The translations under genes were made by a program, and so were the position numbers. Below the pieces are notes generated by a model. It made no database searches, was not told the origin of the DNA, and saw only the letters and a list, made by a program, of their open reading frames with translations. A stretch of DNA of 31,240 nucleotides from a virus: positions 1 to 31,240 of the IMG/VR virus record IMGVR_UViG_3300025085_000111. One strand, 5' to 3'. This document shows, piece after piece, positions 12,013 to 30,897 of this stretch. The stretch's first letter is position 1. Every line of letters starts with the position of its first letter.

Positions 12013-12465
12013 TTATAATCTATCCATGTAGTAGAGAAGTGCTAGTAAACCAAGACCACAAGTGATGATGGTTACAATGAATATCAAACCCCACAACAAC
12101 ATAGATTCCCAGAACTCTTCAGATCGTTTTCTCTTATCTTCCAGTTCTTTCTTACGTTTAACCCGTATATCTTTCCTAAGGTTTAACAATTCTTGGTAAG
12201 CTGAGTAACCTCTAGTGGCTATGATAATCTCTCTTAGTTGGTTCTCAAGATCCTCTGCTTGCTTCCGAGCAACAAAGGTATCTAAAGCTTCCTCATTCGC
12301 AGATGAAAAGATACTACTTCTCTTCTTCTCGTGGTCCCCTTTAACCTCATCAATAGCATCGAAGAGACTTCCTAAGTCCTTAGCCAGTGAGGTTATCTCT
12401 TTACCTGCTGCCACACCAGCCTTCACAGCACTGAAACTTGCTAGTGCAATACTAATCGGGTCCAT
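12013..12465 (-). CDS. Coiled-coil protein with C-terminal membrane segment, 150 aa
   Basis: The N-terminus MDPISIALASFSAVKAGVAA is hydrophobic/amphipathic. A long charged helical region follows (about residues 40-118, rich in Glu, Lys and Arg), then a strong membrane helix (about 122-145, LLWGLIFIVTIITCGLGLLA). Similar N-termini (MDP-I/L followed by Ala-rich amphipathic residues) occur in late proteins of other marine podoviruses, of unknown role. It could be a minor virion protein that enters the cell membrane, or a lysis accessory. Its place close to the spanin genes is compatible with either. Confidence 0.6.
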   Translation of the reverse strand: MDPISIALASFSAVKAGVAAGKEITSLAKDLGSLFDAIDEVKGDHEKKRSSIFSSANEEALDTFVARKQAEDLENQLREIIIATRGYSAYQELLNLRKDIRVKRKKELEDKRKRSEEFWESMLLWGLIFIVTIITCGLGLLALLYYMDRL

Positions 12466-12712: not shown

Positions 12713-12954
12713 TTGACTTTGTTAGCCCAATAGGCTGCACTCATCTTACCCTTCTTGATGTTCTTAGCATGACGGGCTTTGAATGCTTTGTTCCGGGCTG
12801 ACCCAGCAGGGCTACCCTTCACACCTTGTTGTCCAAACCTAATGATCTTTTCCTTACCACCTTCACATGCTTTGACAACATGAGACTTCTTAGGGTGATT
12901 AGGAGTGCTCTTAGGCTTGTTGCACTTCATCTTTGACTTATCTAGTTTAGCCAT
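12706..12954 (-). CDS. Small basic protein with KKSHVVKACEGGKEKIIRFG motif, 82 aa
   Basis: The 82-residue product contains KSHVVKACEGGKEKIIRFG, then GQQGVKGSP, and ends KGKMSAAYWANKVKW. This combination recurs in short basic proteins of many phages and some eukaryotic viruses; I recognise the pattern but not a function. The high Lys/Arg content suggests nucleic-acid contact. It overlaps the outer-membrane spanin gene by eight bases and the next gene by seven. Confidence 0.7.
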   Translation of the reverse strand: MAKLDKSKMKCNKPKSTPNHPKKSHVVKACEGGKEKIIRFGQQGVKGSPAGSARNKAFKARHAKNIKKGKMSAAYWANKVKW

Positions 12955-13126
12955 TACAAGCTGCCCTCCACTTAGCAGAGAAGTTGTCTACCTCTAGGAT
13001 AGTTTGTGTTGTATCATCCCGTGATACAGTTGGCAGGGGTATGCTACAAACAGCATCAACGGAGTTGATCGTTGTCCCGCAACCTGTCAAGAGCAGCATC
13101 CCTATCAGTGTTAACTTCAACTTCAT
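12947..13126 (-). CDS. Outer-membrane spanin lipoprotein (o-spanin, Rz1-like)
   Basis: A 59-residue lipoprotein. The signal peptide (KLKLTLIGMLLL) ends in the lipobox LTGC, so Cys16 would be lipidated and the mature protein would be about 44 residues, with further cysteines. It would sit in the outer membrane and join the i-spanin across the periplasm to fuse the two membranes at lysis. ATG 13126 is chosen over the in-frame TTG just before it. Its first 71 bases lie in another frame inside the end of the i-spanin gene, the classic Rz/Rz1 arrangement. Confidence 0.85.
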   Translation of the reverse strand: MKLKLTLIGMLLLTGCGTTINSVDAVCSIPLPTVSRDDTTQTILEVDNFSAKWRAACNG

Positions 13127-13295
13127 CAATCTTCTCTCTCGTTTCTTTGTAAGCCTTTAGGTTCTGCACCTTCTGCTTCGTCTTCTCTTTCTGGCGTCCA
13201 AACTGAATCGCCCCAAAGAGCACCACTAAGACACCTAAGGCACCTGCCACAAGGCGTTGTACTCGTGAGCCAACAATCAGGTTGAATAGCCACAT
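13056..13295 (-). CDS. Inner-membrane spanin (i-spanin, Rz-like)
   Basis: ATG 13295 is preferred: it has GGGG upstream and begins one base after the stop of the transglycosylase-protein gene. The 79-residue product has one N-terminal membrane helix (residues about 15-33, LVAGALGVLVVLFGAIQFG) and then a charged, coiled-coil periplasmic part ending in DRDAALDRLRD, typical of Rz proteins. It would pair with the lipoprotein encoded in the overlapping frame for the last step of lysis. It is far from the amidase and putative holin genes. Confidence 0.85.
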   Translation of the reverse strand: MWLFNLIVGSRVQRLVAGALGVLVVLFGAIQFGRQKEKTKQKVQNLKAYKETREKIDEVEVNTDRDAALDRLRDNDQLR

Positions 13296-13296
13296 C

Positions 13297-15648
13297 TTAT
13301 TCCCCTGTTGGTCTAGCCATCGGGCGTAGAGATTCCATTGGAGCACTTGATACAGGTTCCACAGCTATTTGATCCTGAGGTACACCAAAGGAACTAGCTC
13401 TTGCGATAGCTTCTCTACGTGTAACTGTACCATCTTTACTAATATCTAAGCTTTTGTTAGCATCGTAAGCATCAGAACCTCTACGGTATAGAACATAGTC
13501 ATCGTCTTTACCTATGCCTCTAGGGTAGTGGATAGCCATGTACAGATCACCGAAGTTTTTAATTCTGTTTTTGTAAGGCTTCAGGTAAGCTTCTACAAAC
13601 TTCATCTGTTCCTCACGAGACATTGCAGCTAGTTCTGATGTTGTTGTACCCAGACCCTCTGCTGTGCTTTCTAAGAACTGGATCAAGCCTGTTGCAGAGG
13701 ATGTCCTAGACTTCTCACTTGGAGAGAATGATCCGATAGTCTCAAACCCTATGATCCGTAGTAGATCTGTTGAGTCAATACCCGGAATACCTTCAGCCAC
13801 CCGATTAACTTCATTAAGGAATGGTGCATCTATTCGTACATCTTCTGGTACATTAATTCCTTCTACTGCAGGTGGTACAACAGCCTCTTGCACATCTCTC
13901 ACAATTGCAGAGACTTCTTCATCTGTTGACAGAGCATTCAGAGTTTCGTTAATAACTCCGATAGAAGTACGACGATCAAGAGCTTGTTCAAGATTGTATA
14001 GACCAGCTACTTGAACTACGTCCGTAACGTCTGTCATACGTTTGAAACCATCTTCAACTGCTACAGCTAAGTCACCTCCGTAGTATCTGTCTAAAGATCT
14101 GGTGAACTCTTGGATACGGATGCCAGAAGCACGTTGAGATAGAGCTTCCATGTCAAGATCGTAGTTATTCCCATTCCAAGATGCTAGGCTATTACCTTCG
14201 ATAGAAGCAAGGTTACGTTCCTGACGTACCAGTTCTGTATTCAAGCCACTGCGTACATAAGTACGGGCAACAGCAGCACCTTCAGGATCTACACCGTCTA
14301 AATTGCTAATGTTCTGGATGAAGTTAGGGTTGGCAACAAGCTGACGTAGGAACGAAGATGATAAGAACTCATCATTTTCCATTGACATCATAACTGCACC
14401 AATACTTGCAGCATTCTCTACAAACTGTTGACGTCCTTCTGGACGTTGTAAAGAGTTGTTGTCGGTCAAGCTAGTTAGTTTACCTGATGCCTTCAGTGCA
14501 TCGAAGTGTTCTTGTGGGGATAGACCAGAAATCTTAGCTTCTACTTCTGGTGGTAAACTCTGGATGGTTGCATCACCCTCTATTGCACCGCCTAATGGTA
14601 CTTCATTCTGCTCAAGGATATGGCCGAAGAGTTGAGGTTGTGCAATGTCAAGATTAATACTCTTGCTAACATCCATTATAAATGTTTGTGCATCGGCACC
14701 CATCAAGCTCATCAGAGATGTCGGGTCTTTGATTGCAGATGCTGCAGCAAGGATAGATTGAGTAGAACCACCACCTTCTGCGAGTAGAGCATCAGAGAAT
14801 GCTGTTGTAATTTCTTCAAACAATACATCAGAACTTGAAGCTTTAGTCAGCATTGTAAACATATTGTCTACATTGGTGATCTTAGCTTGTGTAGCTTTCC
14901 ACTGATCATCAGTTATTGCAGTAGGACGAGACAACTGTACTTTGTATTGTGCCCATTGAGCTTGTAGGTTAGCAATACTTTGTGGGCCTACTCTTTGACC
15001 AGACTGTGTGGTTTGAACTAGACCACCCATACCTACGTTTACAAAAGTATCAACAGCCTCTGCATATGCAGCCTCAGTTTGCACTGACCACTTGTATCCA
15101 GCCTCTGCTTTAGAACGAGCAATAACATCTGCTGCAGCCTGAACAGTAGCCTTCTGGCCGATAGCATACTCAATCCGTTGGTCATCTGTAGCATCTTCTG
15201 GAAGTACAGCATAAGAGGCTATAAAGGATGCTTGCACATCAGAATCCTGTAGTGCATTCTCCATCATGAATGCTTCTGGATCTCTTCCATAACCAGCCCA
15301 TTGCCGACCAGTTGTTGTTGTATAAACAGATTGGAAGTCTGTATCAAACTCAATACCTGCTGTAGCAAAGTTCTTGGCAAGTTGACGTTCTGCAATAAGA
15401 GCAGCACTCTCTCCCTTTTGATCCCGGATAGCTTCGATACGTTCTAATCCCTGCTGGAATACTGCAAGGTTAGGATCAATAGAAGTAGCTCGTTTAGACC
15501 CACCACCAGCTTGCTCTCTGCCATACTGAGATACAAAGAACTCACCAAGGCCAGCTAAGGCACCTATAGCAGATGGAGTTTCTACGGGTTGTATAGGACG
15601 TTCATAAGCTACTTCAGCCTGTAGTTTTGGGGCAAAGAGATCAGCCAT
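13297..15648 (-). CDS. Internal/ejection virion protein with C-terminal lytic transglycosylase domain
   Basis: A 783-residue protein close in length to T7 gp15 (747). Most of it is Ala/Gln/Ser-rich and helical, as in podovirus core proteins ejected into the cell with the DNA. Residues about 629-710 form a lytic-transglycosylase-like domain: IIGFETIG with the likely catalytic Glu636, then SSATGLIQFL, matching the E...GLMQ-type pattern. It would open a local hole in peptidoglycan during DNA entry. Residues 735-746 (DISKDGTVTRRE) fit a 12-residue EF-hand loop. The first base of its ATG is shared with the upstream 1446-aa gene (TAATG). Confidence 0.82.
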   Translation of the reverse strand: MADLFAPKLQAEVAYERPIQPVETPSAIGALAGLGEFFVSQYGREQAGGGSKRATSIDPNLAVFQQGLERIEAIRDQKGESAALIAERQLAKNFATAGIEFDTDFQSVYTTTTGRQWAGYGRDPEAFMMENALQDSDVQASFIASYAVLPEDATDDQRIEYAIGQKATVQAAADVIARSKAEAGYKWSVQTEAAYAEAVDTFVNVGMGGLVQTTQSGQRVGPQSIANLQAQWAQYKVQLSRPTAITDDQWKATQAKITNVDNMFTMLTKASSSDVLFEEITTAFSDALLAEGGGSTQSILAAASAIKDPTSLMSLMGADAQTFIMDVSKSINLDIAQPQLFGHILEQNEVPLGGAIEGDATIQSLPPEVEAKISGLSPQEHFDALKASGKLTSLTDNNSLQRPEGRQQFVENAASIGAVMMSMENDEFLSSSFLRQLVANPNFIQNISNLDGVDPEGAAVARTYVRSGLNTELVRQERNLASIEGNSLASWNGNNYDLDMEALSQRASGIRIQEFTRSLDRYYGGDLAVAVEDGFKRMTDVTDVVQVAGLYNLEQALDRRTSIGVINETLNALSTDEEVSAIVRDVQEAVVPPAVEGINVPEDVRIDAPFLNEVNRVAEGIPGIDSTDLLRIIGFETIGSFSPSEKSRTSSATGLIQFLESTAEGLGTTTSELAAMSREEQMKFVEAYLKPYKNRIKNFGDLYMAIHYPRGIGKDDDYVLYRRGSDAYDANKSLDISKDGTVTRREAIARASSFGVPQDQIAVEPVSSAPMESLRPMARPTGE

Positions 15649-18600
15649 TATTCAGTACCTTTCAGGATAGATCTTGCTGCTTGTAAAGCATACAACTTGT
15701 CTTGTTCGATTAGATTGTTTTGTATTTTCTGCCAACTCTTCTCAAGTGAAGTACCTGTAGATTTACGAAGACTTGCCATTTGAGAAGCAGAGAAACCAGA
15801 GAAGGCTATACGTTCATGCAACTCAGTCATCAACTGGATAGCTAGGTCAACATCACCACGATCACCCTCCATCAAGGTAAAGATACGTTCTGCATCTCTG
15901 TTGACTTCCTTACGGAAAGTAGAGAACTTCTTACCACTGGTGTAGATCTTATTCAGGCGGGTGTAGTTCTCGACTACTTCAAGAGGTGTGAAACCAGTTA
16001 GGGCAACAATACCATCTCCGATAGTCATTTCACTTTCTAGCTCAATACCATTCTTACTTCGATACACACCGTTGTTAAAGATGCCATAGGCTTTAGCTAT
16101 GTTGTCCAGACCTGAGGGTTGACGTAGAAGCTTAATGCTTTCCTCAGTAAGTGTAGCTGTCTGCCCATGTACGAGGGCAGTGATGGCACCCCATGCTGCA
16201 GAGAACACACCCCCTGCAATCTCACCAGAAGGACCACCAAGAGCAGTGATTGTTTCTTCTTGGAATATCTTCTTGTATGTATCTGTGATGGCGTTTACAG
16301 GAGCAAGACGTTGACCTAAACCAATCTCTACATCACCACCTAGAGTAGCAACTAATCCGTCAAGCATACCATATTTCATTGTGATATACAAGTCACTATC
16401 TGGTGCAATGCCTAACTTTTCTCCAACATAGTCTGCTGCATTTGTAAGACCAAAACCTGTTAGACCATACATAGGAGCTAAAGCTACAAACAATCTAGCT
16501 CTTTCTGCTTTAGAGAAGTTACGGCCAACAAAGATACTTTCCATAGACCGTAGAGTGTAGGACAACCACTGTGTGGGTACTTTCATGAAGCCAGCTTGGA
16601 TCTTACCACGAGACAGAGATGACATGTTGAATGTCAGATCCTGCTCACGACGAGTAATCCAAAGTCTAGCTTCATCAGATAATGCAGATACTTTAGGGAA
16701 TTTAGCTTTGAACTCAAAGAATGCAGTGTTAATACCAGTTAGACGGGCGAGACGTTCACCCTGTTTAAATGGCATAAGACCTAGATCCAAACCTTTTGTT
16801 GTCAGCTTCCGTACATTGTACCCTGAACCCATGAGGGCAGAATACTTCATGTTCTCTCCATTCCAACCAGAGATACCAAAGCCAACTCCTGTACCATCTT
16901 CGATAGCATCACCATCTACAACAGAACGACCAGAGGTTTTGATGAACTCAATCAACTCTCCTGCATCTTTCTCAGAGATACCTGCAGCTTTAGCCACACG
17001 TTGTAGTGCAAGCTGTTGTAGCTCAGGTGTAGTGGCTCGTAAGGCACCACGCATGGGGATTGTCAGGGCAGCACCCTTGAAGCCGTGTACAGGGCTGATA
17101 GCCATAATTGTTGTGGCATGGAAAGACTGCATCATAAATTGAGAAATGTTACCAAAACCAAAGGCAGACTGGAAACCAATCTTCAACAAGCCGTTAGATG
17201 GATCACCAAGGTTTAGTTGCTTGCCTGTCTTGTCGAAGATATATTCTGCAACAGCCTGACCTTGACGTTCCATGAAGGTAGAAGCCTCATCCTTCATGTT
17301 CAACCTACGCATGGTAATGTCACGTAGTTCAGACATACGATTGGCAAACTCATCTGTACCAGAGATGTTAGCAGTACGGAACAAAGTCTCATAGTCTGTG
17401 GGTGAGACACCATCTGGGAACCAGTTACGTCCCTTCTCTTGTGCTCTCTTAACCCAGCCAACCATAGCATTCTGAGCATAAGCTCTGTTGCTGTAAGTAA
17501 AGATAGAGTTACCCATCTGTGCTAAGACAGAGTTGATAGGATCTTCGTTGTAGGCTCTACCACCGCCGAAGTCCATAAGCACATCATCATTACGGCGCAT
17601 GTCAGCACCGATATAGTCTTCCATCTTCATGCCAGTGAAGACATCAGATCCATCTACATCACCTGACAAGATGTCATCGTTACGTCCACGGTAGGCAATG
17701 TTACCACGAGTTAGATCCCAACCTTCATTGGTAGCTAATTCCTGCAGATCATCGAAGCTTTGAATGCTGGGATTCCATTCGTTGTTAGCTCTAATCAACT
17801 CATCTATGTTGTTGTCACCATCAACGATAGCACGTTGAATACGACCCAACTGCTCAACAGCAGTACGAGCTTGCTTCTCAGAGAATGTACCCATCAAAGC
17901 TTTAAGACGTTTGTCACCCAACACAACGAAGTAATTAAGGTTAGGGTTAGATCTGGAACCACCGGGGTTGTAACCCATAACATCTGTTGGCTCAATGATA
18001 CGAACCTGTTTAGGCTTGACAACATACTCTTGACCATCAGCCGTAGGTTTGTCTATCTTCCAGATCGGTATCTCTGTAGTTTCTAAGTCTTGCTTACGGA
18101 TCTTACCGCCGAACTCACCATCGACTAGCTTGGCATCATCAGGTACGTCAGCAATGTTGACCTTTTTAGCAGGAGCATAGTAACCATCGAACACTTCTAC
18201 TGAGTTACGATAACCCTTCTCAATGTATCTGTTGAGCATTGTAGAAGTCTTGAGCAAGTAGTCTGCTTCTTCAACAGCAGCTAATGCGTTGTAGGCTTCT
18301 TTAGCTTTCTCACTAGGAGCTAGACCACGAGGATGCATCTGTTGATACTTAACAGCAAACTCACCTTCTGTGTAACGAACACGAAGCTTAGAATCAACAC
18401 CATCACGTAGTTGTGTGTAGACAGATTGAAGTGTGTATCTCTCTTGGGCGTTAAGACGTTGTAGTGACCTAGTGTACGGATCAACAAGTTCTTTGACAGC
18501 AGCACGACCAGACTCACTCATCTGAGCTATACGTGTCAGTCGGTCAACATCCCTAGCAGCAGAAGAACCCATCACTGAGTTGTTCATAACCTTGCCGACA

Positions 18601-19988
18601 GTATCCCGAATGATACCTGCCTCAAGACCTAAGCCCTCATCAAATGCCTTAGGCATACCTGACAAGTTAATACGTTCTGCCACCTCAATGACATATCCTT
18701 TAGACAGATCATTGACATCAACAGGAGCTACACGAGCACTCTCTACTTTCTCACCAATCTCTGCAGCTAGATCCTTGATACCCTGTGGGGCTGATCCATC
18801 TGCTAGTGGTTTGTAAACAGAACCATCAGAAGCTTTACCGAAACGAATGGTTGTAACGAAGTTACCCAATCCTTCATCAACTATTCTGTAGTCAAAGACT
18901 GGGTTACTAACATTCTTACGATACTTGTTGGCAATGTTCTTACCAGCAACCTTAATTGATCGTGGATCTGCAATACGACCAAACGTACCCTTCTGATACA
19001 GATCGTCAATGCCTTTGATAATCTCGTTCTCTGCAAACTTCTCTGTGAACTTGGCAGCAGAGGGACGTACAGGTTGTGGTGCTAGATCAAGATTAGAGGG
19101 TGCTACGTTACCCAAAACTTCTGGGTCAGGGGTAACAGCCAAAACTTTCTCTGCCGACTCAGACGCAGCCTCAGAGCCTCTGATGGCCCCTACTCTACCA
19201 ATAGCAGTAGAAGACTTCATGGCAGTCTTGACACCAGCCTTAACACCGATTGCCAGTAACTCACCAGCACCGATAAGATCTAGGGCAACAAGAGCCTGAT
19301 TGATACCTTTGTTTGGATCGTAACCTGCAGATATTGTTTCTGCTGTCAGAGCTTCCAGAGCACCAAGAGTGTCTTGGGCAAAGATACCTTCTTGACCTAC
19401 TTCATCAGCATATGCTTCAAACCAAGCTCTGAACTCAGGGGCAGTCTTTGTTGCAGCAGCCGTAAGGATCTCTCTACTTTGTCTCTCAGTCTTATTAGTC
19501 AAGACTTCGATAGTACCGATAGGAGATACTTCCCGTAGGAAACGATCAATAGTATTCATCGTCCGTTGGAAAGGAGACTTAGTTGCTGCAACCTCAAACT
19601 TACGATCACTCAAGATCTCATGAGCAATCTGATAGTTCGTAGCTACACGAGCATCTGCTGCAGAGTAGTCGTAGTTATTTACAGCTAGAGCCTGTTCAGA
19701 GATAAAGTCTGGGTTGCTGTTAAACTCATTGTTCTTCTCACCAATGTCAGAAGCTTCGAGAGTTAGTTGGTCAACAGTCTTACCCTGCTCATAACCTTGC
19801 TGGAATACTTTGTAGTACGGGTCTGTTTCTGATTGACGTACTTTAGTCTTAGCCGCCTCAGTATCTAACTCTTCCCCGGTTACTGCAACAATATCCTCTG
19901 TTCTGTCGGTACGTTTTTCAACCATACCAAATTGTTCATCTAATGATTCGAAACTAATGTTGTAACCTAAAGGAAGAGAGTTAGCCAT
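15648..19988 (-). CDS. Large internal/ejection virion protein, T7 gp16-like
   Basis: At 1446 residues this is the largest protein in the window and similar in size to T7 gp16 (1318 aa). It follows a gp14-like gene and precedes the transglycosylase core protein, the internal-core block of podoviruses. It is Ala/Arg/Glu-rich with scattered hydrophobic stretches, for example around AFGFGNISQFMMQSF and the segment with LFVALAPMYGLTGFGL, which could enter the membrane in the ejection channel. The usual gp16 N-terminal transglycosylase motif is not seen. The call is from size, position and composition, not from a firm sequence match. Confidence 0.75.
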   Translation of the reverse strand: MANSLPLGYNISFESLDEQFGMVEKRTDRTEDIVAVTGEELDTEAAKTKVRQSETDPYYKVFQQGYEQGKTVDQLTLEASDIGEKNNEFNSNPDFISEQALAVNNYDYSAADARVATNYQIAHEILSDRKFEVAATKSPFQRTMNTIDRFLREVSPIGTIEVLTNKTERQSREILTAAATKTAPEFRAWFEAYADEVGQEGIFAQDTLGALEALTAETISAGYDPNKGINQALVALDLIGAGELLAIGVKAGVKTAMKSSTAIGRVGAIRGSEAASESAEKVLAVTPDPEVLGNVAPSNLDLAPQPVRPSAAKFTEKFAENEIIKGIDDLYQKGTFGRIADPRSIKVAGKNIANKYRKNVSNPVFDYRIVDEGLGNFVTTIRFGKASDGSVYKPLADGSAPQGIKDLAAEIGEKVESARVAPVDVNDLSKGYVIEVAERINLSGMPKAFDEGLGLEAGIIRDTVGKVMNNSVMGSSAARDVDRLTRIAQMSESGRAAVKELVDPYTRSLQRLNAQERYTLQSVYTQLRDGVDSKLRVRYTEGEFAVKYQQMHPRGLAPSEKAKEAYNALAAVEEADYLLKTSTMLNRYIEKGYRNSVEVFDGYYAPAKKVNIADVPDDAKLVDGEFGGKIRKQDLETTEIPIWKIDKPTADGQEYVVKPKQVRIIEPTDVMGYNPGGSRSNPNLNYFVVLGDKRLKALMGTFSEKQARTAVEQLGRIQRAIVDGDNNIDELIRANNEWNPSIQSFDDLQELATNEGWDLTRGNIAYRGRNDDILSGDVDGSDVFTGMKMEDYIGADMRRNDDVLMDFGGGRAYNEDPINSVLAQMGNSIFTYSNRAYAQNAMVGWVKRAQEKGRNWFPDGVSPTDYETLFRTANISGTDEFANRMSELRDITMRRLNMKDEASTFMERQGQAVAEYIFDKTGKQLNLGDPSNGLLKIGFQSAFGFGNISQFMMQSFHATTIMAISPVHGFKGAALTIPMRGALRATTPELQQLALQRVAKAAGISEKDAGELIEFIKTSGRSVVDGDAIEDGTGVGFGISGWNGENMKYSALMGSGYNVRKLTTKGLDLGLMPFKQGERLARLTGINTAFFEFKAKFPKVSALSDEARLWITRREQDLTFNMSSLSRGKIQAGFMKVPTQWLSYTLRSMESIFVGRNFSKAERARLFVALAPMYGLTGFGLTNAADYVGEKLGIAPDSDLYITMKYGMLDGLVATLGGDVEIGLGQRLAPVNAITDTYKKIFQEETITALGGPSGEIAGGVFSAAWGAITALVHGQTATLTEESIKLLRQPSGLDNIAKAYGIFNNGVYRSKNGIELESEMTIGDGIVALTGFTPLEVVENYTRLNKIYTSGKKFSTFRKEVNRDAERIFTLMEGDRGDVDLAIQLMTELHERIAFSGFSASQMASLRKSTGTSLEKSWQKIQNNLIEQDKLYALQAARSILKGTE

Positions 19989-20467
19989 TACTGAACACCC
20001 GTTAGTAGTTGACTAGCTGTTGGTGGGGTTGGCCCTGCACCGATTCCAAGTGCCTTAAAACCTCCACCAGCTTGGAAGATTTGACCACCAAGACCTGCTA
20101 TAGCTTGACCTGTTTGTGCTTGTGTACCAAAGGTTGTTGCCCTCTGACCTAAAGCAGTGATCTGTCCAGATAGTCCAGACATCTGACCTGCAAAGCCTTG
20201 AGTAGCACCAAGTTGAGAAGACAAAGAAGACAATCCACCGCCTAAGGCAGACCCACCAGTAACACCTAAAGCACCTGCTGTTGTTAAAGCCTGTGCTCTT
20301 TGTAACTGTGATTGACGAATAGCTGCCCGTTGAGAACGTCTAGTCTGTAATTGTTGTTGTCTCTGCTGAACAGCAGCAGCTTTTCTCTGTGCACTAGCTG
20401 CCTTTTGTTGTGCAGATATTGAAGAGACTGTTCCTACCACTGAGGCAATAGCACCTACAACCGCCAT
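19988..20467 (-). CDS. T7 gp14-like internal virion protein
   Basis: A 159-residue protein rich in Gln, Ala and Gly. The N-terminus is hydrophobic (VVGAIASVVGTVSSISA). It is followed by a Gln/Arg/Ala helical repeat-like region (about residues 18-65) and a Gly/Leu-rich second half. Short, N-terminally hydrophobic, Ala/Gln-rich proteins placed before the two large core proteins are the gp14 class, which forms the outer-membrane part of the ejection channel. It shares one base (TAATG) with the next gene. Confidence 0.72.
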   Translation of the reverse strand: MAVVGAIASVVGTVSSISAQQKAASAQRKAAAVQQRQQQLQTRRSQRAAIRQSQLQRAQALTTAGALGVTGGSALGGGLSSLSSQLGATQGFAGQMSGLSGQITALGQRATTFGTQAQTGQAIAGLGGQIFQAGGGFKALGIGAGPTPPTASQLLTGVQ

Positions 20468-20468
20468 G

Positions 20469-20939
20469 TTATTCTCCTATGTATTTAGTATAAAGCCGTT
20501 CTGTGTTCTCGAAACCAAGTCTTTCAAGGACTGCATCGAATGGCTTATGTACTTTAGTGTTTACTGCAATAACAGATACACCCATTTTCTTTAAGTCTTG
20601 TTCAACAAACTTTATTAGTTTAAAGCCTACCAAACCTTTACGATACTTTGGATCGATATAGATAATGTCGTTAACTGCAAAGAGATGGTCTTTATAATGT
20701 GGATGAGGTCTAGCAACAACGATAAAGTAACCTACAAGCTGTTCATCCTTACGAACTGTATAGACACCTAAGTTGCCTGATGTATATAAAGCTTCATAGA
20801 AAGACCAATCAGGGTTTAGTTTAATCTTATCTTTGTTTAAAGCTATCTCTTCCCAATGTTTGTAGAAGAGTTCATCCACTTCTTCTTTTACTTTATAAAA
20901 GTCTTCTCTACTATAATTAAAACCGTTGGTTGACTGCAT
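20469..20939 (-). CDS. GNAT-family N-acetyltransferase within the structural operon
   Basis: The 156-residue product has the GNAT signature: a beta-strand (NDIIYIDPKYR) running into the acetyl-CoA loop YRKGLVGFKL, a helix, then a later strand and AVLERLGFENTERLYTK, the usual C-terminal GNAT segment. It would transfer an acetyl group from acetyl-CoA to an amine; the substrate is unknown and could be a virion protein, host protein or small molecule. ATG 20939 overlaps the nozzle gene by 23 bases, and its stop is one base before the gp14-like gene, so it is co-expressed with virion proteins. Confidence 0.85.
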   Translation of the reverse strand: MQSTNGFNYSREDFYKVKEEVDELFYKHWEEIALNKDKIKLNPDWSFYEALYTSGNLGVYTVRKDEQLVGYFIVVARPHPHYKDHLFAVNDIIYIDPKYRKGLVGFKLIKFVEQDLKKMGVSVIAVNTKVHKPFDAVLERLGFENTERLYTKYIGE

Positions 20940-28463: not shown

Positions 28464-30001
28464 TAAGAGGCTCCTCTAAATCTATTATTAGCCCAAACGA
28501 TATTAGTACTTCTATCTCTACGAACACTCTTGAAAGGCTTGACAGCAATGTCAATAGCAGAAGCAAGAGCATCCTTAATATCGTCGTGTGGTGGGTTCCT
28601 TGACTGTAGTTCTTCTTCTAGTGTCTGTGTGTTACCACCACGGTAGTGCCAGATCTGCATGTTATCATAACGAGGCTCAAGTGTAGCAGCTATACGTTCT
28701 TCTTTATTACCCTGATGTTTGTTGGGTCTGTACTCGTCAATGCTAATAGCTAACCCATGTTGCTTGACAAGTTCTTTGAGTTGCTTAACGATTGCCTGTT
28801 GTGCTACTGTAACCTCTGCTCGCATCTTACGGAAAGACCACTTGGTTGATAACTGCAGAATGTGTTCGAAGTATTCTGTAATACGGTCTGTACGGAAACG
28901 ATCAATGTCTAGGACATAGATATTATTGTCTGAGTCAACGCCTACAATTACAATAGCTGTGTAGTCAGCTTTCTTTGATAAACTAAATGCGAAGTCAACT
29001 GCAGCAAATACATTTAACTTAGCACCTTTGTAAAACCAAAACCCGTTCTCTTGATTTAGGTGTTTACGTTCATAGTACTGAAACCTGTTACTCTCAATCG
29101 GTACGTTGTCTGGATCAGTCGGATCGTTGTAATACTGTGCTCTGAACTGAGACTTGTCTAAATACTGACCACGTTTCTTAGCTAGGATCTGACGATTGAA
29201 GCCAAAGTATTTACCGTCTTTACGTTGTTGTTGAGGCCATAGAAACTCACCGACACCATCTCCTCGGTCTTCTACTGCCCTCTCCATAACCTCGTAGATC
29301 TGTTCCTCAGATACCTTGTTACCATCTTCGTCATATTGATCTTCAGTCATCTGCATCAGATCGTTGTATAAGTCTGCAGGGTGGTAACGAGTACCTACGA
29401 TCCACTCCTTTGCATTAGCCCCTTCGATAGAGGACAACAAAGAATATTGGCTCTTAACTTTATTACGTCCCTCACCTGTGTATGCATTCTCATAGACAAC
29501 AACATCATCTAAAACTGCAATGTCACAGTGCATCCCTGTGAGAGAAGTGGTAAGACCACCAGTAAAGACAGAAGGGTCACGAACATTCTCTCTCTTACGA
29601 AGAGGGTGGTCTAACATAATCTCTGATGTTGTCCACCGTACTCGTTTACCTTCGTCCTTGTTAACATGCTCAGGCCAGTAACGACTATAAGTCTCTGAGG
29701 TTAGGATACCCTTGATAAACCCTAGTTGCTTCTCTGCAAGGTTTGCAGTGGCTGAGATGTACAGTATCCGTAACGTAGGATCTTTGGTTAGTTCCCATGC
29801 AACCCTGTAAGCTACCAACCTAGACTTGCCGTGGTCACGAGGGAAGAGTAACAATTGGTGAGACTTAGAACCCCCTCTAGTCCACCAGTTACACACATCC
29901 TCGTGACATTGGCCTAACACTTGCTCTGGTGAGACAAGCTTAATAAATGTGGCTAGATCATTCTCAGCAGCTTGTCTAATCTGATCTAAAGTTACACTCA
30001 T
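28463..30001 (-). CDS. Terminase large subunit, T7 gp19-like
   Basis: This is the DNA-packaging motor and headful/end nuclease, 512 residues (T7 gp19, 586). The ATPase part has a Walker A-like LFPRDHGKS (ending at Ser60) and Walker B IAVLDD (residues 161-166). The nuclease part begins with AAVDFAF (Asp336), then ADYTAI with Asp346, and a C-terminal HDDIKDALASAID supplying further acidic residues. It overlaps the putative holin gene by four bases (ATGA) and the portal gene by one. A small terminase subunit was not identified in the window. Confidence 0.93.
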   Translation of the reverse strand: MSVTLDQIRQAAENDLATFIKLVSPEQVLGQCHEDVCNWWTRGGSKSHQLLLFPRDHGKSRLVAYRVAWELTKDPTLRILYISATANLAEKQLGFIKGILTSETYSRYWPEHVNKDEGKRVRWTTSEIMLDHPLRKRENVRDPSVFTGGLTTSLTGMHCDIAVLDDVVVYENAYTGEGRNKVKSQYSLLSSIEGANAKEWIVGTRYHPADLYNDLMQMTEDQYDEDGNKVSEEQIYEVMERAVEDRGDGVGEFLWPQQQRKDGKYFGFNRQILAKKRGQYLDKSQFRAQYYNDPTDPDNVPIESNRFQYYERKHLNQENGFWFYKGAKLNVFAAVDFAFSLSKKADYTAIVIVGVDSDNNIYVLDIDRFRTDRITEYFEHILQLSTKWSFRKMRAEVTVAQQAIVKQLKELVKQHGLAISIDEYRPNKHQGNKEERIAATLEPRYDNMQIWHYRGGNTQTLEEELQSRNPPHDDIKDALASAIDIAVKPFKSVRRDRSTNIVWANNRFRGAS

Positions 30002-30219
30002 TTATTACTGATGTTCCATTGTTTAACTACTGAGTCTAAACCAAAGGCTGCACCAGCAAAGGTAAAGATTGGCAGGTTAAGTACCTTTACTGCCTCACCT
30101 GCTAAGGAGTTTCCGAAGAAGACCCATAAGCAAATCAGCAATAGAAGGACTACCAACAATAGGGCTGCCACTTCCCTCTTCAAGGTCTTTTGCTTCTTCG
30201 GTAAGGCTTGATCTGTCAT
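29998..30219 (-). CDS. Putative holin (two membrane segments)
   Basis: The 73-residue product has a basic N-terminus (KKQKTLKRE), a strong membrane helix (about residues 17-36), a short loop, and a second weaker hydrophobic segment (about 46-62), ending in a charged tail. Two-helix size and position between an amidase and the terminase match class II holins such as T7 gp17.5, but the family is not proven. ATG 30219 lies inside the amidase gene: 125 bases are shared in different frames, covering the whole first helix. Its end overlaps the terminase start as ATGA. Confidence 0.65.
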   Translation of the reverse strand: MTDQALPKKQKTLKREVAALLLVVLLLLICLWVFFGNSLAGEAVKVLNLPIFTFAGAAFGLDSVVKQWNISNK

Positions 30220-30643
30220 TGAGGTAATCCTTTACGTTAAAACCGGGACAGGCTTTTGAGGACACTTCGTTATGTCCACGTATTATAGCACCTGAGTATT
30301 CTGCTGTCAAGCTATCTAGTAACTTATTTAATCCTTTTTTCTGATCTTCTGTATAATGTTCTTCGAACTTATCATTAGCATCAGAACCAAAACCACCTAT
30401 GAGGCAAACACCGATAGAGTTTTTGTTGTGGCCTTTAGCATGAGCACCTGCTTTCTCTACAGGTCTGCCGGGACAAACATCACCATTACGATCTACGACG
30501 AAATGATAACCTATATCTGCCCACCCTCTTTCCTCTACGTGCCACCTACGGATTTCAGCAACCTTTGCAGCACAGCTAGATTTCTCTGTCCATTTAGGTT
30601 TAGTTGCACTGCAGTGTATAAAGATTTCGTTGATGTTTCTCAT
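30095..30643 (-). CDS. N-acetylmuramoyl-L-alanine amidase, T7 lysozyme-like endolysin
   Basis: Cleaves the amide bond between muramic acid and peptide in peptidoglycan at lysis. The 182-residue product has the zinc amidase motifs: FIHCSAT with His10, GYHFVVDRNG with Tyr46, IIRGHNEV with His124, and SSKACPGF with Lys130 and Cys132. These match the T7 lysozyme residues His17, Tyr46, His122, Lys128 and Cys130. The amidase fold ends near residue 143; a roughly 38-residue tail follows, with an acidic stretch and a C-terminal amphipathic helix (SIADLLMGLLRKLLSR). That tail is encoded over the putative holin gene in another frame. No signal peptide is seen, so release depends on a holin. Confidence 0.93.
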   Translation of the reverse strand: MRNINEIFIHCSATKPKWTEKSSCAAKVAEIRRWHVEERGWADIGYHFVVDRNGDVCPGRPVEKAGAHAKGHNKNSIGVCLIGGFGSDANDKFEEHYTEDQKKGLNKLLDSLTAEYSGAIIRGHNEVSSKACPGFNVKDYLNDRSSLTEEAKDLEEGSGSPIVGSPSIADLLMGLLRKLLSR

Positions 30644-30897
30644 TGACTAGCCATCTTTTCTACTGAGTCTCTAATAGCTTTAATATTCTCATCCATACGA
30701 CCAAGAGTTACAGCTTGGCTTTGAACGATAGTTTCAAGAGATTCTAAACGAGTTTCATTACGGATGATGTCTCTTGCATTGGCCTTTACGGCACTGTCTA
30801 AACTGGAGATATACCAGACAAGGGCTATTGTCTGTGCAACGATAGCTAGTACCAGAGTTACAGGTACTGACTTACTGAGGTGCCAATTATCTTCCAT
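30640..30897 (-). CDS. Membrane-anchored coiled-coil protein, 85 aa
   Basis: Residues about 11-32 form one membrane helix (VPVTLVLAIVAQTIALVWYI), followed by a coiled-coil with heptad-like Leu, Ile and Val to the end. The layout resembles an i-spanin or an XhlA-type lysis accessory protein. A separate, better spanin pair exists at 12947-13295, so this may be a second lysis component or a holin partner. It overlaps the amidase gene by ATGA and is probably co-translated with it. Confidence 0.65.
   Translation of the reverse strand: MEDNWHLSKSVPVTLVLAIVAQTIALVWYISSLDSAVKANARDIIRNETRLESLETIVQSQAVTLGRMDENIKAIRDSVEKMASQ

Follow-up and report, generated by a model that had tools for sequence, protein, structure and literature searches.

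The window analysed here, a virus record of 31,240 bases that is likely a fragment of a genome, carries three ejection genes in a row on its minus strand, each overlapping its neighbour by 1 base. These encode a gp14-like protein (159 aa, 19988–20467; phrog_8168; the ICBM2 gene at the same place is named internal virion protein B), a 1446-aa ejection protein in the gp16 position (15648–19988) and a 783-aa ejection protein in the gp15 position that is fused to a predicted lytic transglycosylase (13297–15648). ORF coordinates therefore agree with the order of these genes given in an earlier annotation made from the letters of this DNA (the sequence-only reading). The window belongs to a podovirus of the Cobavirinae (Zobellviridae), as its 1446-aa protein is 26–36% identical (71–98% of length) to cobavirus counterparts, namely internal virion protein D in the SIO1 group, P12053L, ICBM1-3, CRP-4 and CRP-5. 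The plus-strand arm (primase/helicase, polymerase, ThyX, Cas4-like exonuclease, RNR and PhoH) agrees with this placement, and together with the minus-strand arm (terminase, portal, coat, tail, GNAT, ejection and lysis genes) it forms a Cobavirinae-like two-arm layout; by analogy with the cultured relatives, the host is probably a marine member of the Rhodobacteraceae. The GNAT acetyltransferase gene (20469–20939, minus strand), which has tail tube B on one side and the gp14-like gene on the other, is kept in the family. Neither an Rfam scan nor a tRNA scan found anything in the window.

An AF2 model of the 783-aa protein, built with 45 members of the family and reaching a mean pLDDT of 80.9, gave a helical core (residues 57–573), a disordered segment (580–596, pLDDT <50) and a separate enzyme domain (601–755). 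Combining this model with the family alignment, we delimit an all-helical conserved core at residues 1–573 (13930–15648, minus strand; residues 1–56 are disordered in the model), a linker at residues 574–600 (13849–13929, minus strand), which in relatives is the site of cassette exchange, and a lytic transglycosylase (SLT-type) domain at residues 601–755 (13384–13848, minus strand), with the codon for Glu636 at 13741–13743. The core folds like the corresponding ICBM2, CRP-4 and ICBM3 proteins. Both Glu636 and the motif SSATGLIQFL (at residue 650) are present as the sequence-only reading had claimed, and its placement of a lytic domain at the C-terminus of this gp15-sized protein is borne out by PHROG, PDB and fold matches. 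Specifically, the C-terminal domain matched phrog_4928 (1.3e-35), phrog_196 (2.2e-34) and the PDB entry 9udh, a “lytic transglycosidase” (1.3e-32), and fold comparison placed it nearest to 9udh (Z 18.9 over 147 residues, rmsd 2.6), with phiKZ gp144 (Z 9.8) and SLT70 (Z 8.5) also matched; the Pfam SLT match reached only 12.8 bits, below the cut-off of 21.3. A catalytic Glu in an FET or ES context was read by eye in all 18 SLT-class proteins. Judged from sequence and model, the domain has the SLT/LT lytic transglycosylase fold with a catalytic Glu. Among the proteins compared, its closest relative is the stand-alone transglycosylase of CRP-5, to which window residues 595–752 are 54% identical (164 aa); in CRP-5 a 658-aa ejection protein is followed by this 224-aa transglycosylase gene, at the same place as the fusion in the window. 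A near-identical record (L012) carries an additional ~300 nt, corresponding to a ~100-aa C-terminal tail, that is missing from the window at 13297, and the aligned flanks of the two have ~8 nt in common at the break.

Directly behind the fused gene lie the spanin genes, all on the minus strand. The i-spanin gene (Rz-like, 79 aa, 13056–13295; phrog_1026, 3.5e-6) starts 1 nt past the stop of the 783-aa gene and is overlapped in another frame by the gene for a probable o-spanin (Rz1-like, 60 aa, 12947–13129), so named from its LLTGC lipobox. A 150-aa protein with C-terminal hydrophobic segments (12013–12465, minus strand; phrog_32327) is conserved near the lysis genes across the family. At the other end of the window, beside the terminase gene, an Amidase_2 gene (182 aa, 30095–30643, minus strand; PF01510, 3.8e-18; phrog_822, 8.6e-57) likely encodes an endolysin, and its presence rules out the fused domain as the sole peptidoglycan hydrolase of the virus represented by the window. 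It is flanked on the same strand by a 73-aa ORF with a hydrophobic stretch, a possible holin, between amidase and terminase (29998–30219) and by an 85-aa ORF before the amidase (30640–30897) with an N-terminal hydrophobic stretch and a weak match to phrog_739 (Rz-like, 0.005).

In T7, the transglycosylase lies at the N-terminus of gp16, the largest ejection protein, and has a presumed role in entry. No lytic domain was found by Pfam and PHROGs scans in the 1446-aa protein of the window, including its N-terminus, and neither fold comparison nor BLASTP matched the core of the 783-aa protein to gp16. The C-terminal domain itself aligned with T7 gp16 by BLASTP over 69 residues around the active site only (E 2e-4), a similarity that, at the level of sequence, places it and the gp16 N-terminus in the same broad SLT superfamily. 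Beyond the SLT domain, hhalign, a PDB profile search and BLASTP found nothing linking the 783- and 1446-aa proteins to T7 gp15 or gp16; T7 gp15 and gp16 were also not among the matches listed by Foldseek and VIA-align, which rules out nothing. The core of the 783-aa protein showed no sequence match or clear fold match to T7 gp15 or phiKMV gp36, and for the first 1200 residues of the 1446-aa protein, modelled at pLDDT 66.8, no fold match reached significance, the best phage row being 9vvp_L, a core protein of phage E1004 (Z 3.8 over 217 residues, rmsd 5.5). The labels “gp15-sized” and “gp16-sized” thus hold for size and position, homology of either large protein to T7 gp15 or gp16 was not shown, and we accordingly use “gp15” and “gp16” for roles assigned by size and position.

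The order gp14-like, ~1450 aa, ~560–680 aa is found in SIO1, P12053L, ICBM1-3, CRP-4, CRP-5 and the Vibrio phage ICP2, and a gene list published for the Zobellviridae phage Klyazma agrees, its internal virion proteins running A, B, D, C (PMC9960094). The view that core genes had been rearranged in the window finds no support in this comparison, since the order is old, common to the whole family and therefore not peculiar to the window.

To place the fusion among its relatives, we scanned IMG/VR and retrieved 105 proteins in the slot position, of which 67 were complete and unique; with ICBM1 added, 68 were compared. An enzyme-sized C-terminal extension follows the core in 37 (fused), and the remaining 31 end at ~585–680 aa (unfused), most of them with an enzyme gene directly behind. 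The plan of the locus in the family is thus a conserved ~573-aa helical core, a disordered linker and an interchangeable muralytic cassette. Pfam, run on chosen representatives of which many gave no match, identified CHAP, GH108 with PG_binding_3, Peptidase_M15_3, SLT, NlpC/P60 and NlpC/P60 with PG_binding_1 among fused modules, and SLT, Amidase_2, Phage_lysozyme, GH19 and PG_binding_1 among stand-alone slot enzymes. Slot enzymes without a Pfam match that were labelled after a sequence motif (“YDT” class) include ICBM1 gp36, annotated by its depositors as an endolysin with a lysozyme-like domain. When assigned by phmmer against exemplars, the two classes occurred in both states: SLT in 16 fused proteins (two of a second subtype) and four stand-alone ones, YDT in nine fused and 11 stand-alone. 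The module of one fused protein (L061, with L074 a near relative) had a weak GDSL-lipase/acylhydrolase Pfam match below the cut-off, which may mean that the carrier also bears a chemistry not directed at peptidoglycan.

The state of the slot and the class of its enzyme both change along a tree built from the adjacent 1446-aa family (64 of the 68 rows, those long enough; quick IQ-TREE, LG+G4; two long-branch joins flagged). At least 5 changes between fused and split were counted, every one of them required by starred branches (mean after shuffling ~21), and at least 19 changes in enzyme class with unclassified rows excluded. The nearest row to the window (L016, 89% identical) is split and carries a YDT-class enzyme, so that the latest step in the window lineage is compatible with re-fusion as well as with retention; of further rows, L010 is split, and L035 and L036 are fused. 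Exchange is seen most directly in L019 and L020, which are ~1% apart in the 1446-aa protein, yet carry CHAP and YDT modules, respectively. Their DNA is 96% identical up to codon 572 and 99% identical again exactly from the stop codon and spanin start, and the exchanged block of L020 contains an additional 297-aa gene. Identity likewise resumes at the stop in the pair L112/L118, and in L040/L044 a common 3′ tail is retained.

The stand-alone enzymes may start further upstream than annotated. Where the enzyme is a separate gene, its reading frame usually continues upstream without a stop, running within the ejection gene in the +1 frame as far as an ATG 67–104 nt before the ejection-gene stop (among others in L001, L002, L005, L010, L016, L091 and L149). 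This extension specifies basic amino acids as well as a hydrophobic stretch, ending in CRP-4 with a lipobox-like LLMAGC. The ribosome site at the upstream start is sometimes strong (AAGGAG in CRP-4, AGGAGG in P12053L), and a second start lies ~2 nt past the ejection-gene stop. This pattern was present at 20 of 21 split loci tested (20/24 including L106, L108 and L113, where the enzyme starts at the stop in another frame and without a hydrophobic extension) and in 0 of 33 fused genes, counts that are not independent trials because the loci are related. As controls, the pattern turned up at 107 of 9542 internal positions and, when frame +2 was read, at 0 of 21 loci, and random synonymous versions recreated it in 1.4–20%. 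The test omits SIO1 (whose protein looks truncated), ICP2, L080, L097, L098, L105 and L117, and the fused set excludes the near-duplicates L036, L037, L074 and L078. As a gauge of constraint on synonymous sites, differences at 4-fold sites over the overlap were 0.44 in the last columns versus 0.51 upstream. On sequence grounds, the hydrophobic extension is likely an export leader belonging to a genuine endolysin; in the Cobavirus paper, these endolysins are described as free of membrane anchors (PMC6775973). The annotated endolysin starts in the family may therefore be too short, concealing an export leader. Separately, the short form of the stand-alone enzyme and the next protein (~200–300 aa) have an N-terminal motif in common in L001, L004, L016, L091, L110 and L149 (for example SSWNKG, or MDFS.QA.E.KP in CRP-4). 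All six pairs picked by eye scored 27–51 against a shuffled mean of 16.5, with two pairs scoring no higher within than between viruses; the motif is perhaps a shared address tag, a suggestion from sequence likeness.

Besides the window with its amidase, most other fused genomes carry a second endolysin unrelated to the slot enzyme. Six of seven fused records of 40–45 kb do: G001 has a GH19 enzyme (phrog_181), G002 a homologue of it, G003 a phrog_465 enzyme and G004–G006 a phrog_465 enzyme behind the fused gene. No second enzyme was seen in the seventh (G007, 40.6 kb) or in the fragments G008 and G009, and in these three lysis might still be a task of the fused enzyme. A Pfam scan of 110 of 135 representative unknown ORFs from seven fused genomes covered the best 25 of 34 families and a PHROGs scan the best 25 of 204, a coverage with which the scans could not exclude endolysins; the GH19 and phrog_465 enzymes came from further searches. 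A 28.5-kb record (G010) contains, near the terminase, a homologue of the window amidase with two in-frame TGA codons, which is either broken or a sequence error. Among split genomes, an exemplar search of ICBM1, ICBM2, CRP-4, CRP-5, SIO1 and P12053L found the slot enzyme only (6/6); because this search used exemplars, plus three Pfam families for CRP-5 and ICBM2 only, an unfamiliar enzyme could escape it.

We propose, with a probability of roughly 0.7, that the window carries an endolysin-slot enzyme on its gp15-position ejection protein for use in entry, with a separate endolysin for lysis. The C-terminal transglycosylase (residues 601–755) is, in this view, an exchangeable cassette of an “endolysin slot” between ejection gene and spanins. 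In relatives, this slot is occupied by muralytic enzymes of very different kinds, encoded separately (the annotated endolysin) or fused in frame to the ejection protein, with recombination between the conserved flanks replacing the cassette. Once fused, the enzyme would most likely be carried in the virion and, while the genome enters, would open the peptidoglycan that surrounds the periplasmic channel. Another endolysin would then be responsible for lysis, presumably in the window the amidase (30095–30643) acting with the spanins (12947–13295). Architecture, exchange, switching and the second enzyme are shown here; we infer the virion location by analogy, as well as the enzymatic activity and this division of labour, and the entry mechanism from homology, architecture and the second endolysin; the occurrence of a second enzyme in fused genomes fits a split of roles in which the fused domain serves entry and the other enzyme lysis. 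More tentatively, and at well under even odds, a single locus may serve both ends of infection and alternate between them. The stand-alone gene would have two starts, giving a long form that begins within the ejection gene in the +1 frame and bears a hydrophobic leader (signal-anchor or lipoprotein) for lysis, and a short form, tagged at its N-terminus like the neighbouring protein, perhaps for the virion. Fusion would remove the leader, turning the product into an entry enzyme, with an unrelated endolysin recruited elsewhere in compensation.

Against the entry reading, the slot directly precedes the spanin genes, as an endolysin would. This endolysin-like place before Rz/Rz1, and the absence of any other enzyme seen in G007, would suit a dual use in which the fused domain, freed by proteolysis or internal initiation, is also the lysis enzyme, besides any role in entry. 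We regard such dual use as improbable: the window has a separate amidase, as six of the seven fused 40–45 kb records have a second endolysin, the hydrophobic leader of stand-alone genes is missing from every one of the 33 fused genes tested, and a free transglycosylase made from an internal start was rejected for the window, whose junction has no convincing ribosome site. Somewhat less doubtful, although still unlikely, is that the C-terminal lytic domain is ancestral and of the type seen in phiKMV gp36, the fusion being old in the larger clade of the window and the stand-alone genes there being secondary splits. That 32 of the 36 rows in the clade holding the window are fused and that phiKMV gp36 and the PhiM1 OEP have the same placement argue for it, but 25 of the 27 rows in the other large clade are split, no fused enzyme was seen on the 660-aa protein of the outgroup ICP2, enzyme classes differ throughout, and the window and its nearest row differ in state, so that the last switch can be read in either direction.

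The sequence-only reading had instead supposed a move of the transglycosylase within one core, out of the gp16-like protein and into the gp15-like one. Beyond the short active-site match to the T7 gp16 N-terminus, little speaks for such a move, which we consider very improbable, as the stand-alone CRP-5 gene is a far closer relative, the 1446-aa protein of the window shows no remnant of a lytic domain in the Pfam and PHROGs scans and the gene order is family-wide. Finally, the contigs are metagenomic and an assembly artefact could in principle have joined two genes; the same fusion recurs at 96–100% identity in other samples (L012 from 3300028844; L007 and L008 from 3300025084) and fused relatives occur in many metagenomes, making this explanation negligible.

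The entry reading bears on a distinction usually upheld, that between entry lysins on ejection proteins and endolysins, as here one locus alternates between both. Many enzyme chemistries occur on one conserved carrier in close relatives, and the split cousins CRP-4, CRP-5, ICBM1 and ICBM2 are cultured, so the family may serve as a natural experiment on two questions, whether entry demands one particular enzyme chemistry and by what route an endolysin turns into a virion protein. Several elements are already known, namely gp15-like proteins with a lytic domain at the C-terminus, the variety of endolysins among cobaviruses and the gene order. For fused/split switching of the slot or an overlapping leader, nothing was found in the open-access literature searched, which is weak evidence of absence; the legend of an RCA-phage map lists a lytic transglycosylase among its genes (PMC6918029).

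Among characterized systems, cobavirus endolysins (ICBM1 gp36, ICBM2 gp34 and CRP-5 gp37) occupy the same locus before the spanins and share enzyme classes with the fused modules; they are described as diverse (lysozyme-like, amidase or peptidase; PMC6775973), but are stand-alone, and the passages of that paper on them do not mention fusion to an ejection protein. The internal protein of cyanophage A4 (Anabaena A-4L; PDB 9k2v), for which the literature searched yielded no publication, belongs to the pre-ejectosome and is 1058 aa long. Close to its C-terminus lies a transglycosylase-like stretch, matching the window domain by phmmer (5.6e-5 at 883–952) and by fold (Z 8.9 at 809–1010), whereas the whole-protein fold match is insignificant (E 0.5–0.6). 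T7 gp16 differs in its N-terminal lytic domain and in the short, weak match of that domain to the one in the window. The nearest functional parallels are the virion lysin phiKMV gp36, a gp15-like protein with a C-terminal lytic domain tested in vitro, the virion lysins of SP6 (gp36) and K1-5/K1E, which likewise have lytic domains on gp15-like ejection proteins (PMC5380687, PMC8954989), and the PhiM1 OEP, with a lytic domain at residues 718–903 (PMC11440229). As in the window, a peptidoglycan-cutting domain sits on a gp15-like ejection protein (C-terminally in phiKMV), and phiKMV has a separate endolysin (lysozyme) gene as the window has a separate amidase. The cores of the window protein and phiKMV gp36 have no sequence match, however. 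The order is 14-15-16 in phiKMV but 14-16-15 in the window, which is why we class the 783-aa protein as working like phiKMV gp36 rather than as a member of its group. Unlike phiKMV gp36 and the PhiM1 OEP, the family of the window swaps enzyme class between near-identical viruses and alternates with a stand-alone gene, and it is this locus, with one conserved carrier and an exchangeable muralytic cassette, fused or stand-alone, that is unusual.
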